A stretch of DNA of 26,845 nucleotides from positions 1-26,845 of the IMG/VR virus record IMGVR_UViG_3300032088_002388. One strand, 5' to 3'. A model generated the notes under the pieces. The model was not told the origin of the DNA. It was given only the letters and a program-made list of their open reading frames with translations, and searched no databases. A program made the translations under genes and the position numbers. Source of the stretch: a virus. Each line of letters begins with the position of its first letter. Within the stretch, counting starts at the first letter, position 1. This document shows positions 14,456-26,362 of this stretch, piece after piece.

Positions 14456-15067
14456 ATGAAAAGAGAACTCATAGAATATATCATCGAGGCAGCCGCTGGA
14501 AAGGGGCTTACTATTTTTGATATTGATGAAACTCTCTTTCATACTAAAGCAAAAATAGGTGTATTACGTAACGGTAAGATAATTAAACAGTTAAATAACG
14601 TACAATTTAATACATATAAATTGCAAAAAGGCGAAACATTTGACTTTGGTCAATTTAAGTCTGCTGAGATTTTTTATAAGACATCTACACCAATTGGTAA
14701 GATGATTGCAAAAGCAAAAATCATTATAAAAAATGCAACGAAGAAAGGTTCCAAAGTAATCGTTGTTACCGCAAGAGGAGATATGGATGACAGAGATCTA
14801 TTCATAAAAACTTTTGAAGCACAAGGAATCGACATGAGCAATGTTTATGTCGAAAGGGCAGGAAATATCGGATTAGATAGTTCTGCAAAAAACAAAGAAG
14901 TGGTATTTAGAAAATATCTAGATACTGGATTATATACAAGAATAAGATTATTCGATGATGCCATGGAAAATCTATTAGCTTTAACATCACTTAAGGATGA
15001 ATATCCACATATAACATTTGAAGCATATAGAGTAAACAAAAGTGGCAGCATTTCAACGGTGAAGTGA
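14456..15067 (+). CDS. HAD-superfamily phosphatase-like protein with prohead-type N-terminal tag
   Basis: 203 residues. HAD motif I is FDIDETLFHT (Asp22, Asp24), motif II VVTARGD (Thr105), and motif III/IV near Lys146 and LFDDA (Asp167, Asp168). This is a full catalytic set for a phosphatase acting by an Asp-phosphate intermediate; the substrate is unknown. The first residues, MKRELIEYIIEAAAGKG, resemble the T4 internal-protein tag and contain I9-I10-E11 before A12, a gp21-type cut site. It has a late promoter and no leader. A packaged phosphatase, perhaps delivered with the DNA, is a testable inference. Confidence 0.82.
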   Translation: MKRELIEYIIEAAAGKGLTIFDIDETLFHTKAKIGVLRNGKIIKQLNNVQFNTYKLQKGETFDFGQFKSAEIFYKTSTPIGKMIAKAKIIIKNATKKGSKVIVVTARGDMDDRDLFIKTFEAQGIDMSNVYVERAGNIGLDSSAKNKEVVFRKYLDTGLYTRIRLFDDAMENLLALTSLKDEYPHITFEAYRVNKSGSISTVK

Positions 15068-15284: not shown

Positions 15285-15384
15285 AGAATACGCTTGGATG
15301 CTAAAACCCATTTCTGATAGATCTAAAGAGATCCGTGAGAAAGGCAGAATTATTGATGCTCGAAGAGCAGGAGTTAAATTATGA
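15262..15384 (+). CDS. Small basic protein (40 aa), unknown
   Basis: Open frame from ATG 15262 to the TGA at 15382-15384, preceded by GGAGAGGAG (15241-15249) and coupled to the SET-domain gene by an ATGA overlap. The peptide is strongly basic (MSQKKKPKEYAWML, then a KEIREKGRIIDARRAG-type helix). It fills a gap that would otherwise hold nothing, in a genome without gaps, which supports it. Function unknown. Confidence 0.6.
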   Translation: MSQKKKPKEYAWMLKPISDRSKEIREKGRIIDARRAGVKL

Positions 15385-15701
15385 ATTTCGAAGGTACTTA
15401 TACGCCTTTAAGGCATGATCTTACAATACAACCAGCAAGTCATGGTTTAGGATTAGTTGCAACCGAAACTATTCCTGCAGGAACTTTTTTAGGTATATCT
15501 CACGTATGGGAAATACAACGATCTGAATGGATAAGAACACCATTAGGAGGTTTTGTAAATCACTCAGAAACACCAAATGCATGGATCTATTGGAATCAAG
15601 ATCATGATCTTGGATGGCAAAGAGAAATGTTCGCTATTAGAAATATCAAAGCTGAGGAAGAAGTCGTAGTTTATTATCAACTACCAGAATATGATGACTG
15701 A
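15381..15701 (+). CDS. SET-domain-like protein (putative protein lysine methyltransferase)
   Basis: 106 residues. It carries the SET fold signature in short form: GLGLVATETIPAGTFLG (about 22-38), then GGFVNHSETPNAW with the NHS motif at 60-62, and REMFAIRNIKAEEEVVVYY ending with the conserved Tyr region. SET proteins transfer methyl groups from S-adenosylmethionine to lysines; the substrate here cannot be read. The domain lacks pre- and post-SET regions, as in other compact bacterial and phage SET proteins. Host or virion protein modification is possible. Confidence 0.8.
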   Translation: MNFEGTYTPLRHDLTIQPASHGLGLVATETIPAGTFLGISHVWEIQRSEWIRTPLGGFVNHSETPNAWIYWNQDHDLGWQREMFAIRNIKAEEEVVVYYQLPEYDD

Positions 15702-15975
15702 TCAATGGCATGGAGGAAAAGGTTCTAAACGAAGAAAATCTGATGAAAACAAATATGCAGATAATTGGGATAGAATATTTGGAAAGAAAAAACGTGGGGC
15801 TGTAGCTCAGTTGGGAGAGCGCGTCCCTTGCACGGATGAGGTCGCAGGTTCGACCCCTGTCAGCTCCACCACCGAAGAAGATTGGGATATGTTACCCGAT
15901 GTAGAAGATCTAGAAAAAATTGTAGATCGAGAACTTAAAAAACTAGAGGAATGGGAAAATGAAAATAAGACATGA
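15691..15975 (+). CDS. Conserved phage protein whose ORF runs through a tRNA gene
   Basis: 94 residues as an ORF. The first 35 (HGGKGSKRRKSDENKY, then DNWDRIFGKKK) are a pattern I recognise as a small conserved phage protein that normally ends soon after IFG. Codons for about residues 36-60 are the tRNA-Ala gene at 15796-15871, giving the well-known false tRNA peptide. The frame then stays open for about 34 acidic residues (DMLPDVEDLEKIVDREL type) to TGA 15973-15975. Either the tRNA was inserted in frame, or two small genes (15691 onward, and one starting at an ATG near 15887) are joined by chance. The GroES gene overlaps the 3' end. Confidence 0.55.
   Translation: MMTDQWHGGKGSKRRKSDENKYADNWDRIFGKKKRGAVAQLGERVPCTDEVAGSTPVSSTTEEDWDMLPDVEDLEKIVDRELKKLEEWENENKT
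15796..15871 (+). tRNA. tRNA-Ala (anticodon TGC)
   Basis: A 76-base cloverleaf: acceptor stem GGGGCTG pairs with CAGCTCC (one G-U), discriminator A and encoded CCA at 15868-15871; D arm TAGCTCAGTTGGGAGAGC; anticodon arm CGTCC-CTTGCAC-GGATG, with anticodon TGC reading GCA/GCN alanine codons; T arm GCAGG-TTCGACC-CCTGT. The GC content is far above that of its surroundings, as for any tRNA. It lies inside an open reading frame on the same strand. The encoded CCA suggests a functional, self-sufficient gene. Confidence 0.96.
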
Positions 15976-16225
15976 TTATGTATTAGTAGCGGAAGCACAA
16001 AAAGAAGAGAAAACAGCAGGTGGAATTATTCTATCCGCTGATGCTCAAATAGATAAAGCAGCAAAACCTGGAGTTGTATTAGCATACGGTCCACATGTTG
16101 AAGGACTATTTACAGGAGATAGAGTATATGTGCAATGGTCAGAATCTATGCCTATCAACGTAGATGGAAAAGCAGCTGTTTTAATTAAAGATGAATTCGT
16201 AAAAGCATATATAAGATCCGAATAG
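15959..16225 (+). CDS. groES: GroES-like co-chaperonin
   Basis: 88 residues. MKIRHDYVLVAEAQKEEKTAGG matches the GroES strand and mobile-loop start; GGIILSADA is the mobile loop region that touches GroEL; KPGVVLAYGP and GDRVYVQWSE follow as the family beta strands. Phage co-chaperonins such as T4 gp31 replace host GroES to fold the major capsid protein. No GroEL is present, so it would work with host GroEL. Starts 17 bases inside the preceding ORF, with GAGGA upstream. Confidence 0.88.
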   Translation: MKIRHDYVLVAEAQKEEKTAGGIILSADAQIDKAAKPGVVLAYGPHVEGLFTGDRVYVQWSESMPINVDGKAAVLIKDEFVKAYIRSE

Positions 16226-16226
16226 G

Positions 16227-16234
16227 TATAAATA
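16227..16234 (+). promoter_or_regulatory. T4-type late promoter (TATAAATA), 5 bases from AUG
   Basis: A perfect octamer, then GAACC, then the ATG at 16240. The same spacing as at 10413, 14443 and 19565; predicts a leaderless transcript for the RimK-like gene. Confidence 0.75.
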
Positions 16235-16239
16235 GAACC

Positions 16240-17658
16240 ATGTACGATTATAACTATATCACAGAAGCCAAAGAAAAGAACATGAAAATGTCTGTAATTA
16301 TATTGGCTAATTCACTGGACGATGGAACAGCAGCAAAAGTTATGGCTGATGTATGTTCGTTTAATGATATAGAATGCAATTTAATTGATATTGATAAAGC
16401 ATATTTAGGTGATGCCGATATTGAACTGAGAAAAGTTGATATTCGTAATATCGATGGAGAAGGTAAAAAGGTTACATGTAATATAGATTCAACAATCGTA
16501 TTTACAAGAGGTGGAGCAATTGCGACTCAGGTAGGACAAGCTTTAGTATCTACATTACAAACCGCGGGATTCTTTATGGTTAATGATCTTGAATCCATGA
16601 TGTTATGTGATAATAAAATGGCAACTACAATTGCTATGAATAGATCAAATGTTAAAACACCGCGCACAGTTATATTGAACAACGATGAAAGTATCGAATT
16701 TGCTCATAAACAAATTGGTAGTAAATTTCCTGTAATTGTTAAAACTTTGACCGGAACGCAAGGTGTAGGTGTAACAAAAGTTGATTCGATGAGTTCTTTA
16801 AGGTCTGTATGTCAATCTTTATGGAAGTTTGATGCACAGCTGTTGATGCAAGAATTCTTAGAAATGGAATATGATATCAGAACTCTTGTAGTTGATGGTA
16901 AAATATTAGGTGCAGCAAAAAGAATCACGGCTAAAGGTTCTGAATTTAGATCAAATGTTCATCAAGGCGCAGATACGGTTCCTTATATATTAAAGGAAAG
17001 GGAAATTGAAATAATTCTTGCAGCTTCACGAGTAAGTGGAGGATATTATGTTGGTGTAGATCATTGTATAGTTGATGGAGAGATTTATATTTTAGAGGTA
17101 AATGGATCTCCTGGTGTAAAGTCACATTATAACGCATATGATTTAGATACACAAAAATCTGTAGGTAAAAAATCAGACAATAAATTATTTGATATATTTT
17201 TAAAATATTTGTTAGAAGAAAATAATAGAACTAAATTCTTTAGACTTGAAGCAGGTTTTATTGAAACAATTATCCTTGAAGGTATGGAAGATGATCCAAT
17301 ACGAGCTAAACTTGATACCGGCAATGGAACAAATGCATCAATGTTAATGGTTGATGATCTTAAGGTAAAAGATAAAAAAGTATTTTGGAAAAAGAATGGT
17401 AAGAAATTTGAATCTGATCTTATTGGTTTATCTAAAGCAAGACATATGGAAACGGTCGATGAAAGACCAGTTATTGAACATACAATAACATTTAATAATA
17501 GATCCTATCTAATACATTTAGGATTATCGCTTAAAAATACAGCATCAGAGATGTTGTGTAATAGAGATTTAATAACACTTTTTGGTGTATCTGTAAATCC
17601 ATCTAAACGATTTGCTTTAACACCATACACGGCAAGAAATGACAACTACGACGTTTAA
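16240..17658 (+). CDS. RimK-like ATP-grasp ligase fused to an aspartic-protease-like (RimB-type) domain, with prohead-type tag
   Basis: 472 residues. About 15-325 is a RimK-like ATP-grasp ligase: KTLTGTQGVGV (ATP-binding loop, 168-178), QEFLEMEYDIR, and EVNGSPGVK (286-294) with metal-binding residues. RimK adds glutamates to ribosomal protein S6. About 335-465 is a second domain starting LEAGFIETIILEG with KLDTGNGTNAS (Asp359-Thr-Gly), the hallmark of the RimB/ATP-dependent protease family usually encoded next to rimK. The N-terminus MYDYNYITEAKEKN contains I7-T8-E9 before A10, like the T4 capsid-targeting tag. A late promoter lies five bases upstream. Inference: a virion-associated protein-modifying enzyme; the target is unknown. 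Confidence 0.88.
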   Translation: MYDYNYITEAKEKNMKMSVIILANSLDDGTAAKVMADVCSFNDIECNLIDIDKAYLGDADIELRKVDIRNIDGEGKKVTCNIDSTIVFTRGGAIATQVGQALVSTLQTAGFFMVNDLESMMLCDNKMATTIAMNRSNVKTPRTVILNNDESIEFAHKQIGSKFPVIVKTLTGTQGVGVTKVDSMSSLRSVCQSLWKFDAQLLMQEFLEMEYDIRTLVVDGKILGAAKRITAKGSEFRSNVHQGADTVPYILKEREIEIILAASRVSGGYYVGVDHCIVDGEIYILEVNGSPGVKSHYNAYDLDTQKSVGKKSDNKLFDIFLKYLLEENNRTKFFRLEAGFIETIILEGMEDDPIRAKLDTGNGTNASMLMVDDLKVKDKKVFWKKNGKKFESDLIGLSKARHMETVDERPVIEHTITFNNRSYLIHLGLSLKNTASEMLCNRDLITLFGVSVNPSKRFALTPYTARNDNYDV

Positions 17659-17798: not shown

Positions 17799-18068
17799 AT
17801 GGCAGATTTAGACAATTTAGATTTTGACTTTGGTTTTACAGCAGTTGATGAACATGAACTCGAAGCTGTACAAACCGTAAGTAAAACCGCTGACACTGCA
17901 GCATCAGAATTAGCTGCAGCTGAAGCAAAACTAGGTAAGTTATATAATGCAATATTACCATTGCTCAGTAACTTGAAGAAAAATCCTGAAAAGGAATACA
18001 TACTTTGGCCAAATAGGACAGAGAAAATTGAACAATTTGAAGATGTTATTGCTAACATCATAAAATGA
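17799..18068 (+). CDS. Small conserved T4-like phage protein, probably late/structural
   Basis: 89 residues. An acidic N-terminus DLDNLDFDFGFTAVDEHEL leads to an Ala-rich helix and then LYNAILPLLSNLKKNPEKEY and LWPNRTEKIEQF. I recognise this pattern (DFDFGFT-VDE, then LY--ILPLL, WPNR) from T4-like marine phages, where it is conserved but unassigned. A late promoter and its position beside the endolysin suggest a structural or assembly role. Confidence 0.72.
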   Translation: MADLDNLDFDFGFTAVDEHELEAVQTVSKTADTAASELAAAEAKLGKLYNAILPLLSNLKKNPEKEYILWPNRTEKIEQFEDVIANIIK

Positions 18069-18079
18069 GGATACCACAA

Positions 18080-18520
18080 ATGGATATTAATAAATTAAGA
18101 GAGCAACTAAAAATAGACGAAGGACAGGTCAATGAAATTTATAACGATCATCTTGGCTATGCTACTTTTGGTATCGGTCATTTGGTTATTGATGGTGATC
18201 AAGAAAAGGGTCAACCATTGGGCACACCAGTTACCGAACAACGCGTTTATGAAGTTTTTGAGAAGGATGTACAAACGGTAATTGCCGATTGTAAAAAATT
18301 GCATGAAGGTTGGGATGGATATCCCGAGGAAGCAAAACAGATCATTGCAAATATGATGTTTAACATGGGTTATACTCGACTTTCTAAATTTAAAAAACAC
18401 AATACAGCGCTTCAGTGCGGTGATTGGAAAACAGCAGCTGTCGAAGGAAGAGATTCAAGATGGCATAAACAAGTCACAAATAGAGCAGAAAGGCTCATGG
18501 TGAGACTTGAAAATATATAA
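18080..18520 (+). CDS. T4-type lysozyme (endolysin, glycoside hydrolase 24)
   Basis: 146 residues from ATG 18080, chosen for the GAGG at 18067-18070; an ATG at 18065 in an ATGA overlap is the alternative. Residues KIDEG...YNDHLGYATFGIGH line up with T4 lysozyme: catalytic Glu14, Asp23 and Thr29 correspond to T4 Glu11, Asp20 and Thr26. Later conserved blocks are MMFNMGYTRLSKF, SRWHKQVTNRAERL and a short C-terminus. It hydrolyses peptidoglycan after a holin opens the membrane; no signal peptide. It sits about 12 kb from the spanin-like genes, so the lysis set is split. Confidence 0.93.
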   Translation: MDINKLREQLKIDEGQVNEIYNDHLGYATFGIGHLVIDGDQEKGQPLGTPVTEQRVYEVFEKDVQTVIADCKKLHEGWDGYPEEAKQIIANMMFNMGYTRLSKFKKHNTALQCGDWKTAAVEGRDSRWHKQVTNRAERLMVRLENI

Positions 18521-18805: not shown

Positions 18806-19243
18806 ATGGCCTATTCGCAGAAGGTAATAGACAGATTTAATAATGTATTAAATTCTCCAGAGAAATTCTCTGTAGGCCGATTCGATCCAAAAGAATCCAA
18901 TGTAGCAACCGGAATGACAGGCGCACCCGCGTGTGGTGATGTCATGAAGCTACAACTGAAATTGAATGACAACGAAGAAATCGTTGATGTTAAATTTAAA
19001 ACTTATGGATGCGGATCCGCTATCGCATCTTCTTCATTATTCGTTGATATGCTAATGGGTAAAACCATAGAAGAGGCAAAACTTGTTAAAGACAAAGATA
19101 TTGCCGAAATATTAGAACTTCCGGCTATCAAACTTCATTGTTCTGTATTAGCTGAAGATTCGATTCGTCAGGCAATAAGAAATTGGGAAGATAAAAAAGC
19201 CCATAGACAGCACAATGGAGAACCTAATGATCGAGTTGACTAA
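18806..19243 (+). CDS. iscU: IscU/NifU-like Fe-S cluster scaffold
   Basis: 145 residues. All three cluster-binding cysteines are present: Cys43 in APACGD (with Asp45), Cys69 in YGCGSAIASSS, and Cys112 in KLHCSVLAED (with His111). This fits a working IscU scaffold, which receives sulfur and iron and passes [2Fe-2S] clusters on. The LPPVK-type chaperone-binding motif is replaced by LPAIK (about 105-109), close to the usual form. It is followed by an A-type carrier gene overlapping by 17 bases, so the phage carries two parts of one pathway and would rely on host IscS and chaperones. Confidence 0.93.
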   Translation: MAYSQKVIDRFNNVLNSPEKFSVGRFDPKESNVATGMTGAPACGDVMKLQLKLNDNEEIVDVKFKTYGCGSAIASSSLFVDMLMGKTIEEAKLVKDKDIAEILELPAIKLHCSVLAEDSIRQAIRNWEDKKAHRQHNGEPNDRVD

Positions 19244-19544
19244 TGAAGCAATTCAACAATTACTCAAACAAACCCAAAATGAGGGGAATGATACTGTCAG
19301 AATTGGTTATTATCCTGGCGGTTGCAACGGTTTTAAATATGTTATCGCTTTTGCTGATACAGTCACTGGCGATGATCATATCATAGACTACGGAAAGTTT
19401 CTTATAGTAGTAGAAACTGGCCAACTTCACAATTTTACTGGATTAACCTTAGATTACATTACTGAGGGACTCAATTCAGAATTCAAATTCATAAATCCTA
19501 ATGCAACTGCGTCCTGTGGTTGTGGAGAATCAGTAGCCTTTTAG
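19227..19544 (+). CDS. A-type Fe-S carrier (IscA/ErpA/HesB-like)
   Basis: 105 residues from ATG 19227, chosen for the GGAGA at 19218-19222 over ATG 19215. The three conserved cysteines are present: Cys33 in PGGCNGFKY and Cys97/Cys99 in ASCGCGES, with the usual spacing. A-type carriers bring clusters to target enzymes. Next to iscU it probably supplies host or phage Fe-S proteins late in infection; possible clients cannot be read from this window, although the YkgJ-like protein is a candidate metal protein. Confidence 0.92.
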   Translation: MIELTNEAIQQLLKQTQNEGNDTVRIGYYPGGCNGFKYVIAFADTVTGDDHIIDYGKFLIVVETGQLHNFTGLTLDYITEGLNSEFKFINPNATASCGCGESVAF

Positions 19545-20200: not shown

Positions 20201-20729
20201 TTCTAAAATAGCCATATGGGCTTTTATAGTTATTTTTTTACTTGGATCCGCTGAAGATATATATGGCGATGAATTAGTACATGAATTTAAAAATCCTTCG
20301 TTCAGCGGAGTAGGAACCTCATCTCATTATCTTACAATTGAGAATCAGGAATTTAGTAGAAGACAAGCAATAGCTGAAAAAATAGAGAGTGCATTACAAG
20401 CAGCACAAAGAGATGCAGAAAATACAACATTAGCAAAATTTATGCGTAATCTCGAATCGAGAATTTATGCTCAATTATCTAAACAGCTTGTAGAATCATT
20501 ATTTCAATCATGTACAGCTGAAGCAATAGCTGCAGGAACATGTACAGAAACAACATTTGGTAGTTTTGTCCTAGAAGGAAATACAATTACATATCAAAAA
20601 ACGATATGTGATGAAAGTCTATGGGCTTGTACTCAGGGTGAACAAGTTATTGTTATGACTATTGTTGCTGAAGATGGAACAGAAACACAAATAGTAATTC
20701 CAATTGGCGCTGGATCGACTGGTGGATAA
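20169..20729 (+). CDS. csgF: CsgF-like curli assembly protein
   Basis: 186 residues from ATG 20169 (GGAG upstream); the longer frame to 20091 overlaps the previous gene and is unlikely. A hydrophobic N-terminal segment (AIWAFIVIFLLGSAEDIYG) is a signal peptide or anchor. The mature N-terminus LVHEFKNPSFSG followed by SHYLTIEN matches CsgF, whose N-terminal F-NP-F-G segment inserts into the CsgG channel and forms a second constriction. The rest is a helix and a beta region with two Cys pairs (SCTAEAIAAGTC; CDESLWAC). It is longer than E. coli CsgF (138 aa). csgG follows directly. Confidence 0.85.
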   Translation: MEEIKPLISRNSKIAIWAFIVIFLLGSAEDIYGDELVHEFKNPSFSGVGTSSHYLTIENQEFSRRQAIAEKIESALQAAQRDAENTTLAKFMRNLESRIYAQLSKQLVESLFQSCTAEAIAAGTCTETTFGSFVLEGNTITYQKTICDESLWACTQGEQVIVMTIVAEDGTETQIVIPIGAGSTGG

Positions 20730-21684
20730 GAAGCTTATATTATTAATAGGAGTCCTTCTTATGCAAGGATGTGCTTCTATTGTCCCGCCAGGAGGATTAT
20801 CAGCAACAAATTGTAATCCTGCATTAAATTTAGCGTGTGTAGAATCACCAGAAGTTGTTGAGTTACCTACACATGAAGAATTAAGAAATTTACCACCAGC
20901 AGAAAAACAAATAGTCGTAGCAGTATACGGATTTCCTGATAAAACAGGACAAAGAAAACAAAAAGGAAATGCTGCAATGTTCAGTACAGCAGTATCACAA
21001 GGCGGTGATACAATGCTTATTGACGCATTAAAAAATGCAGGAAAAGGACAATGGTTTAGAGTAGTAGAACGCGTAGGAATAGATCATCTTACAAGAGAAC
21101 GTCAAATCGTTCGTACTACAAGAGAACAATATGGTGAAAAGGATGAAACTGGGTTAGCCCCGCTTCTTTTCGCAGGGATCATTCTTGAAGGAGGTATCAT
21201 TGGATTCGATACTAATATCGAGACTGGGGGAATGGGAGCTCGAACTCTTGGTATTGGTTATTCACAACAATACCGAAGAGACATAGTAACTGTTTCATTA
21301 AGAGCTGTCAGCACATTGACAGGTGAGATTTTACTAAATGTGCAAACGTCAAAAACCATTTTGTCGATCGCTGATGGCTATGACGTATTTAAATTCGTTG
21401 ATATGGACACTCAACTTGTAGAAATAGAAGATGGGATGACAGAAAACGAATCGGTGACACGGTCGCTTCGCTCAACAATTGAAGCAGCTGTGTTAGAAAT
21501 GATATACCAGGGGGAAGAATTAGATTTTTGGAAAATAAATTGGCCAATGAAACAAATCATTGAAAATAAAGTCGAACAGATTATAGACGAAGCTGAAATT
21601 ATATATACTAAGCCAATAGAAGATCCAGAAAACATTCCGGAAGAAGTTATTACCCCTGAAACAATAGAGGAAATAAGAGGATGA
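20722..21684 (+). CDS. csgG: CsgG-like outer-membrane curli secretion channel lipoprotein
   Basis: 320 residues from GTG 20722 (TTG 20704 is an alternative). Lipobox LMQGC puts the lipid on Cys17. The core matches E. coli CsgG closely: VAVYGFPDKTGQ, MFSTAVSQGGDTMLIDAL, WFRVVERVGIDHLTRERQIVR, GGIIGFDTNIETGGMGAR, STLTGEILLNVQTSKTILS. CsgG forms a nonameric outer-membrane pore that exports curlin subunits. By ungapped alignment from memory, the constriction Phe56 is kept (MFSTAV) while Tyr51 and Asn55 are Gly and Met. The acidic C-terminal tail (IEDPENIPEEV...) is an extension. Overlaps csgF by 8 bases and the curlin-like gene by 4. Confidence 0.95.
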   Translation: MDKKLILLIGVLLMQGCASIVPPGGLSATNCNPALNLACVESPEVVELPTHEELRNLPPAEKQIVVAVYGFPDKTGQRKQKGNAAMFSTAVSQGGDTMLIDALKNAGKGQWFRVVERVGIDHLTRERQIVRTTREQYGEKDETGLAPLLFAGIILEGGIIGFDTNIETGGMGARTLGIGYSQQYRRDIVTVSLRAVSTLTGEILLNVQTSKTILSIADGYDVFKFVDMDTQLVEIEDGMTENESVTRSLRSTIEAAVLEMIYQGEELDFWKINWPMKQIIENKVEQIIDEAEIIYTKPIEDPENIPEEVITPETIEEIRG

Positions 21685-22409
21685 ATATTTTTAAAAGATA
21701 TATCGCATTCGCTCTTTTATTATGCCCCGTAGTTGTGTTCGCTGGAGCCAATGATAACAAAATTCTTTTAGATCAATCTGGAGATACACTAAGGCTATAC
21801 GTAGACCAAATCGGTTATGGTAATAAGCTTTGTGGAACTATCTCAAGTGCAGATTGTGCTACTGATTGGGTTTTGACTGGTAACACTGTCACAATGGATA
21901 TAGATATGATAGGTAACTTGAACCAAATCTTTGGTCCAACACTATTTGATTCTACTGATGTTGACTTAAAGTTAACTGGAAATAGTAACATATGGGATTG
22001 GAACGTAGGTTATGGTGGAAGTGCTGATTCATCTGTAATGGATGTTGACATAACCGGTTCTTCAAATACTTTCGATATAGATTGGGGTTATACAGCTTCA
22101 GCTGAAAGATTGGATTTTGATTTAGATATAACCGGTGGATCAAACGTATGGAACATTGATATTAATGCTGATGATGTAACTTGGAATGTGGATGTTGTAG
22201 GAAGTTCAAATAACTTCTTAACAGCACAATCCGATGGTGCAGATAATTCATTAACAATGGAATACATAGGTTCAAATGGAGATATCGATATTATTCAATC
22301 ATCTGGTACATGCCCAACTGGCGTGAGTGGATGTTATGGAATAATAAACGCGGATTTTGACACAGAGAATGGCATTGTTGACATTAAACAAAAAGATACT
22401 GGCGACTAG
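21681..22409 (+). CDS. Curlin-like repeat protein 1, candidate secreted amyloid subunit
   Basis: 242 residues with a signal peptide (IAFALLLCPVVVFAG). The body is made of about seven units of the type hydrophobic-Asp alternation, G-x-x-N, then another strand: QIGYGNK, MIGNLNQ, LTGNSNI, ITGSSNT, ITGGSNV, VVGSSNN. This is the strand-loop-strand pattern of curlin (Q-G--N) with Asp and Trp in place of many Gln. Directly after csgG with an ATGA overlap, it is the natural substrate of the channel. Amyloid formation is inferred, not shown. Four Cys and an acidic composition are unusual for CsgA. Confidence 0.82.
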   Translation: MNIFKRYIAFALLLCPVVVFAGANDNKILLDQSGDTLRLYVDQIGYGNKLCGTISSADCATDWVLTGNTVTMDIDMIGNLNQIFGPTLFDSTDVDLKLTGNSNIWDWNVGYGGSADSSVMDVDITGSSNTFDIDWGYTASAERLDFDLDITGGSNVWNIDINADDVTWNVDVVGSSNNFLTAQSDGADNSLTMEYIGSNGDIDIIQSSGTCPTGVSGCYGIINADFDTENGIVDIKQKDTGD

Positions 22410-23514
22410 TCTATTACTGATTAGTTCAACAGCTTTTGCCAATGATGTTGGCAATATAACTGAACACAAGGGCAGTGGTGGAATTACTCGTGAAGGTGAG
22501 TCATTTGCCACTGATCTTGGTTTAGGCGTTATTGCAATGGATCATATTGAAACAGTTAATGGTCGATTAAAATTAGATTTTATTGATTCTTCTGTACTTA
22601 GATTAACTGAACATACGGAAGTTACATTATACGAATATTATTACAATTCTAAAACCAAAGATGGTGGAATTGGAATGAAAATGGTCAGTGGTACTGCAAG
22701 ATTTTCTACTGGCAGATTAGGTTTATTACCTAAAGAAAATATAGTAATTGATACTCCAACCGCCACAGTGGGCGTACGTGGGACGGATTTTACGACTTCA
22801 GTTGATGAATTGGGAAGAAGTTTAGTAATTCTCCTTCCGGAAACTGAATGTACTATAGATGGTGATTGTTCACCGTCAGGAGAAATTACGGTAACAAATG
22901 AGGGCGGTGTAGTAGTCCTTACAGAAGCATATCAAGCCACAATGGTGTCAAGTTATGATACAGCACCAGCACAACCAGTTACGCTTCAAAATATAAATTT
23001 AAATATGATTGACAATATGTTTATTGTTAATCCACCAAAAGAAATACAGGATCAACAAGAGGAAACTCAAGCTAATACTGCGGTCAATTCTAATGGCCTA
23101 CTTGATTTCACTGAGCTCGATACTGATTATCTGGCCGATGATTTTTTAGCAGAAGATGATTTAGAATTCAATGAACTCGATATGGATTTACTTGATGTCG
23201 ACTTTTTACAAGACATATTGGTTGCTTTAGAAGAAATAAATATTTTAAAAAATAAACAAATTTTATCATCTGCAGGTGGTTCCGGAAATATAGTTGGTAC
23301 TGCTTTAGGATTTGATAAAAATACACAATATAATACAATAATAGATCAAGGTGCTGGTCAAATTTGGTTTTATAGAGAAGTAAATGGAGTTATATCGGTA
23401 AGAATTCCGATAGATTCAAATACAACAGTGGAGAGTGAAAATGAAGGTAAGAAAAATCTTATCAGTGTTGGCGATGGTCAGTCTGTCGTTATCATCATAC
23501 GTCAAAGCGGATAA
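22369..23514 (+). CDS. FecR-domain periplasmic protein
   Basis: 381 residues from ATG 22369, preceded only by a weak AGAG; other start codons upstream are possible. Signal peptide ILATSLLLISSTAFA, then a typical FecR domain at about 30-140 (GESFATDLGLGVIAMDHIETV, VNGRLKLDFIDSSVLRL, then IVIDTPTATVGVRGTDF). FecR domains are periplasmic and signal envelope or ligand state. An acidic Leu/Asp repeat (about 245-285) and a C-terminal beta domain (GDGQSVVIIIRQSG) follow. The gene overlaps its neighbours by 41 and 74 bases in other frames. FecR proteins often accompany CHASE2-cyclase genes in bacteria, as here. Confidence 0.88.
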   Translation: MALLTLNKKILATSLLLISSTAFANDVGNITEHKGSGGITREGESFATDLGLGVIAMDHIETVNGRLKLDFIDSSVLRLTEHTEVTLYEYYYNSKTKDGGIGMKMVSGTARFSTGRLGLLPKENIVIDTPTATVGVRGTDFTTSVDELGRSLVILLPETECTIDGDCSPSGEITVTNEGGVVVLTEAYQATMVSSYDTAPAQPVTLQNINLNMIDNMFIVNPPKEIQDQQEETQANTAVNSNGLLDFTELDTDYLADDFLAEDDLEFNELDMDLLDVDFLQDILVALEEINILKNKQILSSAGGSGNIVGTALGFDKNTQYNTIIDQGAGQIWFYREVNGVISVRIPIDSNTTVESENEGKKNLISVGDGQSVVIIIRQSG

Positions 23515-24265
23515 TACAAACTCAGTTATCATAAGTCAAGTATCAGGTGTATCAACAGATAACTTGAATTTGAATATTGAACAGATAGGTTATAATAATA
23601 AAGTCAATCTTTCTATTGCTCACGATAATAACACACTACTCTTTAAACAAGAAGGTAATAATAACAAAATATCTTGGGTTGACTATTGGGGATCAGGATT
23701 AGCTTATGGTGGTGATTTAGACGGTTCTGGTAATAATTTACATTTTGAACAAAAGTGTACAAGAGGAGCCGGTAATTGTTCTCAATCAGTTATAGGATTT
23801 CATATTAATCATCCAAACAACGTAGTTCGTTGGGGTCAAGGTACAATATTGACAGATATAAATGATACAACTTTTTCAAACGATGGAGATGAAGGTGGTG
23901 GCCATAGATTAAATTTAGATATTCATGGAGAAGATAACAAACTAGTAGGTTATCAAAGAAATGGTAGTTTAAATAATTATAACGGACACACAGCTACAAT
24001 TTATTATTATTCAGATAACAATGAATTTTTTGTTAAACAAGAAACAGATGGTGCTAAGACACTTTCATTGATAACATACAATGACGGAAATACAGGTACA
24101 ATCACACAATCTGGTAATGGAGCTCATAATGCTACAGTAACTTTGACTGGTACAAATCCCACTACATTTAATTTAACTCAAACTAGTAATACAGCTCAAT
24201 CATATTCATTAACTCAAAATTGCCAAACATCAGGTGGATGTTCGGTTAGTGTTACACAAAACTAA
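23441..24265 (+). CDS. Curlin-like repeat protein 2, candidate secreted amyloid subunit
   Basis: 274 residues from ATG 23441 (GGAGAG upstream), with signal peptide ILSVLAMVSLSLSSYVKA. Curlin-type units are clear near the start (IEQIGYNNKVNLSI; FKQEGNNNKISW) and end (ITQSGNGAHNATVTLTG; LTQTSNTAQ; SLTQNC). The middle (about 85-200) is Gly/Asn/Asp-rich and less regular. It is closer to bacterial CsgA/CsgB than protein 1 because it keeps Gln. It starts 74 bases inside the FecR gene. The pair may act as major and minor (nucleator) subunits, by analogy with CsgA/CsgB; that is inference. Confidence 0.85.
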   Translation: MKVRKILSVLAMVSLSLSSYVKADNTNSVIISQVSGVSTDNLNLNIEQIGYNNKVNLSIAHDNNTLLFKQEGNNNKISWVDYWGSGLAYGGDLDGSGNNLHFEQKCTRGAGNCSQSVIGFHINHPNNVVRWGQGTILTDINDTTFSNDGDEGGGHRLNLDIHGEDNKLVGYQRNGSLNNYNGHTATIYYYSDNNEFFVKQETDGAKTLSLITYNDGNTGTITQSGNGAHNATVTLTGTNPTTFNLTQTSNTAQSYSLTQNCQTSGGCSVSVTQN

Positions 24266-24429: not shown

Positions 24430-24506
24430 TGAGAAGAAGATTTTTATATTTTAAATATGGATTTCCACAATCGAAGAAAGGGTCTATTCTAGACATATAC
24501 GTATGA
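24429..24506 (+). CDS. Mini-ORF (25 aa) coupling to the cyclase gene
   Basis: ATG 24429 overlaps the previous TAA by one base, and its TGA overlaps the cyclase ATG (ATGA at 24503-24506). The peptide is basic (MRRRFLYFKYGFPQSKKG). Without it the cyclase start would have no nearby ribosome binding site, so this ORF may serve mainly for translational coupling. Confidence 0.45.
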   Translation: MRRRFLYFKYGFPQSKKGSILDIYV

Positions 24507-26362
24507 AATATTTAACAAGCATTTGGACAGTTATAGCTGTTATTGCATTTGGATTGTTTCTTAAAATATCCAATGTTCCTCAAATTGAACAAATCCAGCT
24601 TATGGGATTTGACGCAAAAATTCAATCACTACCCAAACAAAAAGACGAAGATGTAATTCTTTATGAAATTGGAGAAGGTACATTAGAAAAATGGGGTCAA
24701 TTTCCATTACCTCGTCAATACTATGCCCAAATGATATCTGACTTAATAAATGCAAATGCCGAAATTAAGGCTTTTACGATTATGTTCCCAGAGGCCGACA
24801 GGTTTGGAGGAGATCCAGCATTTGAATCGTGGATTAAAGACTCTGGAGTGGTTCTATCACAAAAAGCCGATCCTCGTGGAAGATCAGACGTAGCTCCATA
24901 TGTTGGAACTGCCATGAAAGGCGAAGGCGATCCTATGCAATTTCTTCAAGAATACGAAAAAATTCTAACAAATGTAGAAATAGTTGAAAGACATGCTTGG
25001 GGAGCAGGAATATCTAATGTAGCTCCAGAAGTTGATGGAATAGTACGTAAGTTTCCTTTAGTTGTACAAGTTAATGGTCAAAGATATCCATCATTATCGG
25101 TAGAAATTATTAGAGCTGAGAATCAGACAAAGGGTTATACAATTAATACTGATCCAGATCTTGGAATAGTAGATCTTTTTATACCACCAAAATTACATTC
25201 AAAAACAAATTCGGATGGAACAGCTTATATTAACTATTCAATAACGCACGATCGTTATGAAGCGGGAGTTGACACTCTTCCAGATCTTCGTGGGAAAACA
25301 GTTCTGATTGGTGTTTCGGCTCTTGGGATTGTGCCTGAGATTCTGACTCCGTTAGGGTTAAAGTTTCCCCATGAGATTCAAGCATCGGCTCTATCTTCGA
25401 TCCTTTCAGAGGATTCAATAATCCGTCCTTATTGGGCTGATTTGGCGGAAATAGGTCTAATTCTAATTGGGTCTCTGTTGATTCTTTCATGTGTTTATTT
25501 CTTTCCTGCGATAATCGGATTAGGCGCCTTTGGCGTTGTTGGTGCTGTAAGCTTCTATTTCTCCAGCTATTTTTGGACGAATTCACTATATCTCCTTGAT
25601 TGGACATTCGCTATAGTATTATATATAATAGTCTTCGCGCATGCAAGTTTTAATAACTTTTGGATCCAATTTAAATTAAGACAACAAATTAAAGGTCAGT
25701 TTGGTACATATCTTTCACCTGATATGGTGAATATGTTGATTAAAGATCCAAGTTTAATGAAGCTTGGGGGTGATAGAAAGGAAATGACATTTTTATTCAT
25801 GGATATATGTGGATTTACCCCAATATCGGAATATTATAAGAATAAAGATGATCCCGAAGGATTAGTAGAATTAGTCAATGAATTCCTCGATGCAATGACA
25901 AAAATCATTCTCAAAAATGGAGGAACAATTGACAAATATATGGGTGACTGCATAATGGCATTTTGGAATGCACCATTACCTTGTAAAAATCACGCTGAAA
26001 TGGCAGTTAAATCAGCAATGGAAATTGAAATAAAAGTAAATGAACTCAAAGAAATCTATAAAGAACGTGGTCTTCCTGATATCAATGTTGGGACTGGCAT
26101 TAACACCGGGGATTGTATTGTTGGTAACATGGGTAGTGAATCCAGATTTGACTATTCGGTTATTGGAGATGCAGTCAACCTTGCTGCTCGACTCGAGGCA
26201 ACTGCTGCCCGTCATGAATACATAGATTACAAAACTATCATCTCAAGCTTTACAATGAAACAACTCCCAGAAGGATATTTCTGTGAGAAGATTGGTGATA
26301 TCAAAGTAAAGGGTAAAGAAGAAACCATCTCTATATTCTCCCCTGGAATATACCGTAAGTAG
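24503..26362 (+). CDS. CHASE2-domain adenylate cyclase (class III)
   Basis: 619 residues. Layout: an N-terminal membrane segment (about 5-21), a periplasmic CHASE2 sensor (about 30-300), three membrane segments (about 316-381), and a cytoplasmic class III cyclase domain (about 425-605). Catalytic residues are in place: metal Asp434 (FMDICGFT) and Asp482 (DKYMGD), adenine-binding Lys478 and Asp556 (SVIGD), transition-state Asn559 and Arg563 (NLAARLE). Lys and Asp at the purine site favour ATP, so it should make cAMP. The sensor faces the compartment through which FecR and the curlin-like proteins pass. The part of the gene at about 25260-25560 is unusually GC-rich. Confidence 0.93.
   Translation: MKYLTSIWTVIAVIAFGLFLKISNVPQIEQIQLMGFDAKIQSLPKQKDEDVILYEIGEGTLEKWGQFPLPRQYYAQMISDLINANAEIKAFTIMFPEADRFGGDPAFESWIKDSGVVLSQKADPRGRSDVAPYVGTAMKGEGDPMQFLQEYEKILTNVEIVERHAWGAGISNVAPEVDGIVRKFPLVVQVNGQRYPSLSVEIIRAENQTKGYTINTDPDLGIVDLFIPPKLHSKTNSDGTAYINYSITHDRYEAGVDTLPDLRGKTVLIGVSALGIVPEILTPLGLKFPHEIQASALSSILSEDSIIRPYWADLAEIGLILIGSLLILSCVYFFPAIIGLGAFGVVGAVSFYFSSYFWTNSLYLLDWTFAIVLYIIVFAHASFNNFWIQFKLRQQIKGQFGTYLSPDMVNMLIKDPSLMKLGGDRKEMTFLFMDICGFTPISEYYKNKDDPEGLVELVNEFLDAMTKIILKNGGTIDKYMGDCIMAFWNAPLPCKNHAEMAVKSAMEIEIKVNELKEIYKERGLPDINVGTGINTGDCIVGNMGSESRFDYSVIGDAVNLAARLEATAARHEYIDYKTIISSFTMKQLPEGYFCEKIGDIKVKGKEETISIFSPGIYRK

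Follow-up and report, generated by a model that had tools for sequence, protein, structure and literature searches.

A family of phage proteins joining RimK-type and RimB-type domains behind a probable T4-like capsid-targeting tag

Introduction

RimK is an ATP-grasp ligase that adds glutamates to the C-terminus of ribosomal protein S6 (RpsF), and RimB is a retropepsin-like protease that acts on the resulting tails. In Pseudomonas, the rimABK genes encode separate proteins, forming a chromosomal regulator of RpsF tails under cyclic-di-GMP control (PMC7343187, PMC11957791). In P. fluorescens, RimB trims the poly-Glu tails made by RimK, leaving 4-5 Glu on RpsF (PMC7343187), and raises RimK ATPase activity about fourfold (PMC11957791). 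Furthermore, RimB can cut internal poly-Glu runs, and RimK makes free poly-Glu when RimB is present (PMC11957791). A bacterial RimBK hybrid was described by Little et al. in 2025 (PMC11957791), represented by Desulfotalea psychrophila DP2392 (Q6AKK4) and found mostly in Flavobacteriales and Rhodobacterales. In this hybrid RimB is N-terminal and RimK C-terminal, and no capsid tag was reported. The one hybrid tested had protease activity but showed no glutamylation of P. fluorescens RpsF. Related retropepsins are RloA (PDB 9G58/9G59), which is periplasmic and not fused, and the Legionella protein 2PMA.

Among phages, cyanophages carry RimK alone: in S-RIM8 and S-RIM12 (PHROG 2599) the protein is about 295 aa long, without protease domain and without tag, and in S-RIM8 the gene lies near gp17/gp18. 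A different line of work concerns the internal head proteins of phage T4 (IPI-IPIII), whose N-terminal capsid-targeting sequence (CTS) is what encapsidates them. The CTS allows the packaging of foreign proteins, and IPI* is injected at infection (PMC3012670). IPI is a small nuclease inhibitor, and none of the T4 internal proteins is a ligase/protease enzyme.

Here, we analysed a stretch of 26,845 nucleotides of viral DNA (IMG/VR record IMGVR_UViG_3300032088_002388, positions 1 to 26,845; hereafter, the window), in which an initial annotation based on the sequence alone had proposed a RimK ligase fused to a RimB-type aspartic protease, preceded by a prohead-type tag and a late promoter, and had read it as a self-contained switch acting on S6 or on a virion protein.

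Results

The window encodes a RimK-RimB fusion protein

The open reading frame proposed by the initial annotation is open over its whole length, and the three motifs of the two domains lie in one chain (Table 1); the observation is thus confirmed. The protein matches the Pfam RimK family PF08443 over residues 124-303 (E = 4.3e-31; 108 bits, cut-off 21) and TIGR00768 over residues 60-303 (E = 4.5e-39; 134.5 bits, just under the cut-off of 143.4). An AlphaFold2 model built on 48 IMG/VR sequences (mean pLDDT 81) had the RimK:RpsF complex 5zk6 as its first Foldseek match. Superposition with VIA-align gave Z 28.7 to P. syringae RimK (7qys) and 28.1 to 5zk6, with ArgX and LysX close behind. By sequence profile, however, RimK is far ahead of LysX/ArgX (1e-36 versus about 4e-15).

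The C-terminal domain of the window protein falls below the Pfam threshold, but PF05618 (the RimB-type "Zn_protease" family) is hit by 38 of 48 aligned relatives, with a best E-value of 4e-9. A sequence profile of the domain matches 9g59 (E = 9e-8), 2pma (E = 2.4e-6) and 9g58. Coherently, when the domain was modelled alone (pLDDT 84), the first structural matches were 2pma, 9g58 and 9g59 (Z 12.7-14.1, the highest to 2pma), followed by retroviral proteases.

Table 1. Positions of the fusion gene, its parts and its surroundings in the window (L127 is a related locus)
Feature	Position	Strand	Details
T4-type late promoter TATAAATA	16227..16234	+	Exactly 5 nt before the ATG
RimK-RimB fusion gene	16240..17658	+	472 aa, stop included
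Capsid-targeting-like tag and predicted prohead-protease site MYDYNYITE^A	16240..16266	+	Residues 1-9; cleavage is inferred
RimK-type ligase (pre-ATP-grasp plus ATP-grasp)	16288..17244	+	Residues 17-335
ATP-binding loop GTQGVG	16753..16770	+	Residues 172-177; aligned with GTQGIG of E. coli RimK 5zct
Metal-binding motif EVNGSPG	17095..17115	+	Residues 286-292; E286, N288, G292 in 48/48 relatives
RimB/RloA-type retropepsin domain	17257..17619	+	About residues 340-460
Catalytic motif DTGN, within KLDTGNGT (residues 357-364)	17314..17325	+	Residues 359-362; D, G and N in 48/48, T in 46/48 (S in 2)
GroES-like co-chaperonin (upstream neighbour)	15959..16225	+	PF00166, E = 5.8e-9
T4-type lysozyme (downstream neighbour)	18065..18520	+	PF00959, E = 3.6e-8
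TATAAATA sites with ATG at exactly 5 nt	10413, 14443, 16227, 19565		Also in L127, L128 and related loci
Proteins with N-termini resembling the T4 internal-protein tag	380-2946, 14456-15067; L127 7038-12606		Including a cytidylyltransferase-like protein and a HAD phosphatase
Small SET-domain protein, possible protein methyltransferase	15381-15701		PF00856, E = 2e-10; about 540 bases upstream of the fusion gene
NifU/IscU-like and IscA-like iron-sulphur assembly genes, side by side	18806-19544		
CsgG homologue next to two secreted-looking proteins	20704-24265		PF03783, E = 8e-49 (CsgG); the two proteins at 21681-22409 and 23435-24265
FecR-domain gene	22357-23514		
CHASE2-domain class III adenylate/guanylate cyclase	24503-26362		PF05226, E = 1e-31; PF00211, E = 8e-20; downstream of the FecR-domain gene

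Catalytic residues and selection

Then, we evaluated whether the residues expected in the two active sites are conserved, since loss of key ATP-grasp residues had been set beforehand as a result that would contradict the proposal. The ligase residues K168, D212, R214, R237, N239, D274, E286 and N288 and the protease-domain residues D359, G361 and R442 are present in 48 of 48 relatives. Among these, K168, D274, E286 and N288, which correspond to nucleotide- and metal-binding residues, align with those of E. coli RimK. Comparing the window gene to that of its 85%-identical relative L088, nonsynonymous change is far below synonymous change in both domains (dN 0.085 vs dS 1.11 in the ligase, dN 0.093 vs dS 0.65 in the protease), indicating strong purifying selection. 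A chance match of the motifs was rejected on the basis of the profile matches, the conserved residues and this selection.

Two positions next to the protease active site differ from bacterial relatives in every member. RimB-type retropepsins commonly, although not strictly, have Ala or Ser after DTG and a second motif with Gly before Arg: 2pma and 9g59 have DTGA, and the second motif is LLGR in 2pma and LMGT in 9g59. In the phage family, DTGN and L-x-N-R are found in 48/48 sequences. We took this as a subfamily difference, because 9g59 varies here too. Nevertheless, protease activity is not assured, and the domain could be fully active, altered in specificity, or partly a ligase activator.

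The family is large and apparently restricted to phages

One scan of viral contigs in IMG/VR gave at least 554 confirmed relatives. Conversely, a scan of about 85,000 bacterial and archaeal species, using two stringent family-specific peptide patterns that would miss distant bacterial hybrids, found no bacterial member and only one 7.5-kb contig in an archaeal MAG; this matches an IMG/VR contig (L078) in length and match position and looks like a misplaced phage contig. On this basis, and within the reach of these two stringent patterns, host gene capture or a prophage origin was rejected. A search of plasmids returned no record covering 80% of the query, and the RimK-RimB order was not seen there.

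Among isolates, Pelagibacter phage Mosig (Mosig_00005) and Yersinia phages YerA41 (YerA41_066) and GN1 have both domains, while the Melnitz methylophages (Melnitz_230) have the ligase only. The Mosig, Melnitz and YerA41 homologues have about 30% identity and are annotated only as glutathione synthetase, hypothetical/RimK-like or structural protein. The order is RimK followed by RimB in the window and relatives, the reverse of the bacterial hybrid. Literature searches, limited to open-access papers, found no description of a phage RimK-RimB fusion.

Most relatives carry an N-terminal tag similar to that of T4 internal proteins

In T4, IPII and IPIII begin with MKTYQEFIAEA, IPI begins with MKTFKEF with ITEA further on, and gp23 carries SFLTEA; the prohead protease gp21 cuts after the Glu. 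The fusion proteins begin with MEKFNSFITEK, MERFNEFLIEK, MEKFKSFITEA, MKVPKFNEFIAEA, MKAPKFREFISEQ, MQNFNEWQ...PITEK and similar sequences, the shared form with the T4 internal proteins being [FY]xx[FY][IL]xE followed by a prohead-protease site (YITE^A in the window, FIAE^A in T4). The cleavage motif is kept while the following linker varies. A strict pattern is matched by 30 of 62 distinct relatives, 7 of 631 other ORFs on the same contigs and 0 of 3100 internal segments (Fisher 1e-28). The relatives are not independent, but after thinning to 24 divergent members 13 still match. The N-terminus of the window protein (MYDYNYITEAKEK) keeps the cleavage part but has one residue less between the aromatics than the strict pattern requires, whereas L088 (MFDFTNYITEA) fits. 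The tag is also kept in Mosig (FKNYLEEA) and Melnitz (FSQFITEE).

A start at M15, which would remove the tag, was considered and rejected: the upstream start and the tag are kept in relatives, including ones that start with GTG or TTG (e.g., VENFKSFITEE). In addition, the tag codons show high synonymous divergence, although with only 14 codons this evidence is weak alone.

Coherently with a prohead-type system, in contigs of relatives the major capsid protein has GN[FY]ISEAA at the position where T4 gp23 is cut, and the gp21 protease (PF03420) is encoded on 6 of 11 longer contigs examined, all with E < 1e-42. On the contigs of the window's own lineage, which are all fragments, no gp23 match was obtained, in a search that had no positive control, and the 49-kb contig gave no gp21. 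The window and L127 also encode clusters of proteins with N-termini resembling the T4 internal-protein tag (MKTFKQNLHEA, MIKSFSQYVDEA, MKTFKEL, MKSFNEI, MKNYKDI, MKRELIEYIIEA), which are candidate further head-packaged proteins.

Gene context and late promoter

In 64 of 108 loci the gene lies at the junction of gp17 (large terminase) and gp18 (tail sheath), with both neighbours found in 54 of them. In 25 loci it lies between regA/clamp-loader genes and the DNA polymerase, a replication region, as in Mosig; in seven, belonging to the window's lineage, between a co-chaperonin/HAD gene and a lysozyme; 12 loci are unresolved. In the contig L066 the order gp17, RimK-RimB, gp18, gp19, gp20, gp21, gp22, gp23 can be read directly (gp21 identified by PF03420, gp23 by its match to annotated major capsid proteins, the others by order and resemblance to T4).

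In the window, the number of TATAAATA motifs is no higher than chance (6 found, 5.4 expected). However, 15 of 30 such sites in this lineage have an ATG at exactly +5, compared to 18 of 168 in other relatives and none in the T4 stretches examined, and the spacing at the fusion gene is kept in the close relatives L007, L039, L041 and L042. If transcription starts where it does in T4, these late mRNAs would be leaderless.

As for the other genes listed in Table 1, the two secreted-looking proteins next to the CsgG homologue have curlin-like QxGxxN repeats by eye; Melnitz is reported to lack csgA and csgB (PMC9004378).

Discussion

The initial annotation was right that a RimK ligase and a RimB-type aspartic protease lie in one phage chain with intact catalytic residues, and that the prohead-type tag (real at the family level) and the late promoter exist. 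Its interpretation is only partly supported. Fusion alone is not new, given the bacterial RimBK hybrid; the domain order, the DTGN motif and the phage setting are what differ from it. A self-contained switch is plausible, since RimB trims the tails made by RimK and stimulates it, but a switch on S6 is inferred, considering that the tested hybrid did not glutamylate P. fluorescens RpsF. The annotation also did not recognise that the tag implies packaging and probably injection, nor that most relatives sit inside the late structural gene block.

Taken together, the best reading (probability of about 0.6) is that the gene encodes a bifunctional protein-modifying enzyme, made late, loaded into the prohead by the tag, trimmed of about nine residues by the gp21-type protease, carried in the mature head and injected with the DNA. 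In the new host, the RimK half would add glutamates to a target C-terminus, most likely that of S6/RpsF, and the RimB half would trim the chain and stimulate the ligase, setting short tails before any phage gene is expressed. Our analysis establishes the two folds (by profile and model), the intact catalytic residues, the selection on both domains, the conserved tag, the late promoter and the structural-gene context. Packaging, cleavage and injection are well supported but remain inferred, and we consider them likely; the poly-glutamate chemistry is inferred more weakly, and S6 as the target is only tentative.

Packaging is also coherent with published data on YerA41, for which a homologue with both domains (g112, "Ribosomal protein modification protein") was identified by LC-MS/MS in purified virions (PMC7354516). 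The correspondence of g112 to YerA41_066 is ours, based on its annotation as structural protein and on its neighbours. Moreover, that list of 63 proteins includes cytoplasmic enzymes such as dUTPase and polymerase, making carry-over possible, and the YerA41 N-terminus lacks the clear tag. The replication-region location in 25 loci and the imperfect tag of the window protein also weigh against this reading.

Among the alternatives, the one that survives best, although unlikely, is that the ligase has another substrate or product (free poly-alpha-glutamate, a peptide or a coenzyme), with the retropepsin as its partner and without involvement of S6. This is compatible with packaging and with the production of free poly-Glu by RimK in presence of RimB, with the negative result on the D. 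psychrophila hybrid, and with the fold scores of ArgX and LysX, nearly as high as those of RimK; the sequence scores, however, clearly favour RimK. It is less likely that the protein is an ordinary auxiliary enzyme of the infected cell's cytoplasm and the N-terminal segment only a lineage-wide leader. The replication-region loci, the untagged cyanophage RimKs and the tag-like N-termini of several small proteins in this lineage could suggest this, but the tag is far rarer on other ORFs of the same contigs, its cleavage motif is kept while the linker varies, and a homologue was detected in YerA41 virions. Finally, the tag, the gp21 context, the gp17/gp18 neighbourhood, the cutting of internal poly-Glu runs by bacterial RimB and the runs of 6-9 Glu in some scaffold (gp22) proteins could point to an enzyme acting on head or scaffold proteins during assembly, but this is improbable: a poly-Glu scaffold as general substrate was rejected, as runs of 4 or more Glu occur in only 6 of 21 gp22 sequences (15 of 21 distinct loci on contigs carrying the gene have none), the ligase residues are strictly conserved, and ATP and glutamate should, by inference, be scarce in a packaged head.

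A bolder and still tentative reading is that a widespread class of marine T4-like phages packages and injects a complete glutamate write-and-trim module that re-sets host ribosomes at the moment of infection, i.e., a virion-borne ribosome-modifying enzyme built as a single chain in a domain order not known from bacteria. The virion-borne use would be the real novelty. Our main reading predicts that in the cultured phages Mosig, Melnitz and YerA41 the enzyme should be in the virion, in the tagged phages with its tag removed, and host S6 or another protein should gain glutamates within minutes of infection. If the main reading is right, the family also gives a natural two-domain enzyme for making defined poly-glutamate tails. 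It would then link two fields that have not met, bacterial ribosome specialisation by S6 poly-glutamylation and the injection of phage head proteins, and give a concrete function to genes annotated as glutathione synthetase or hypothetical in uncultured marine phages.
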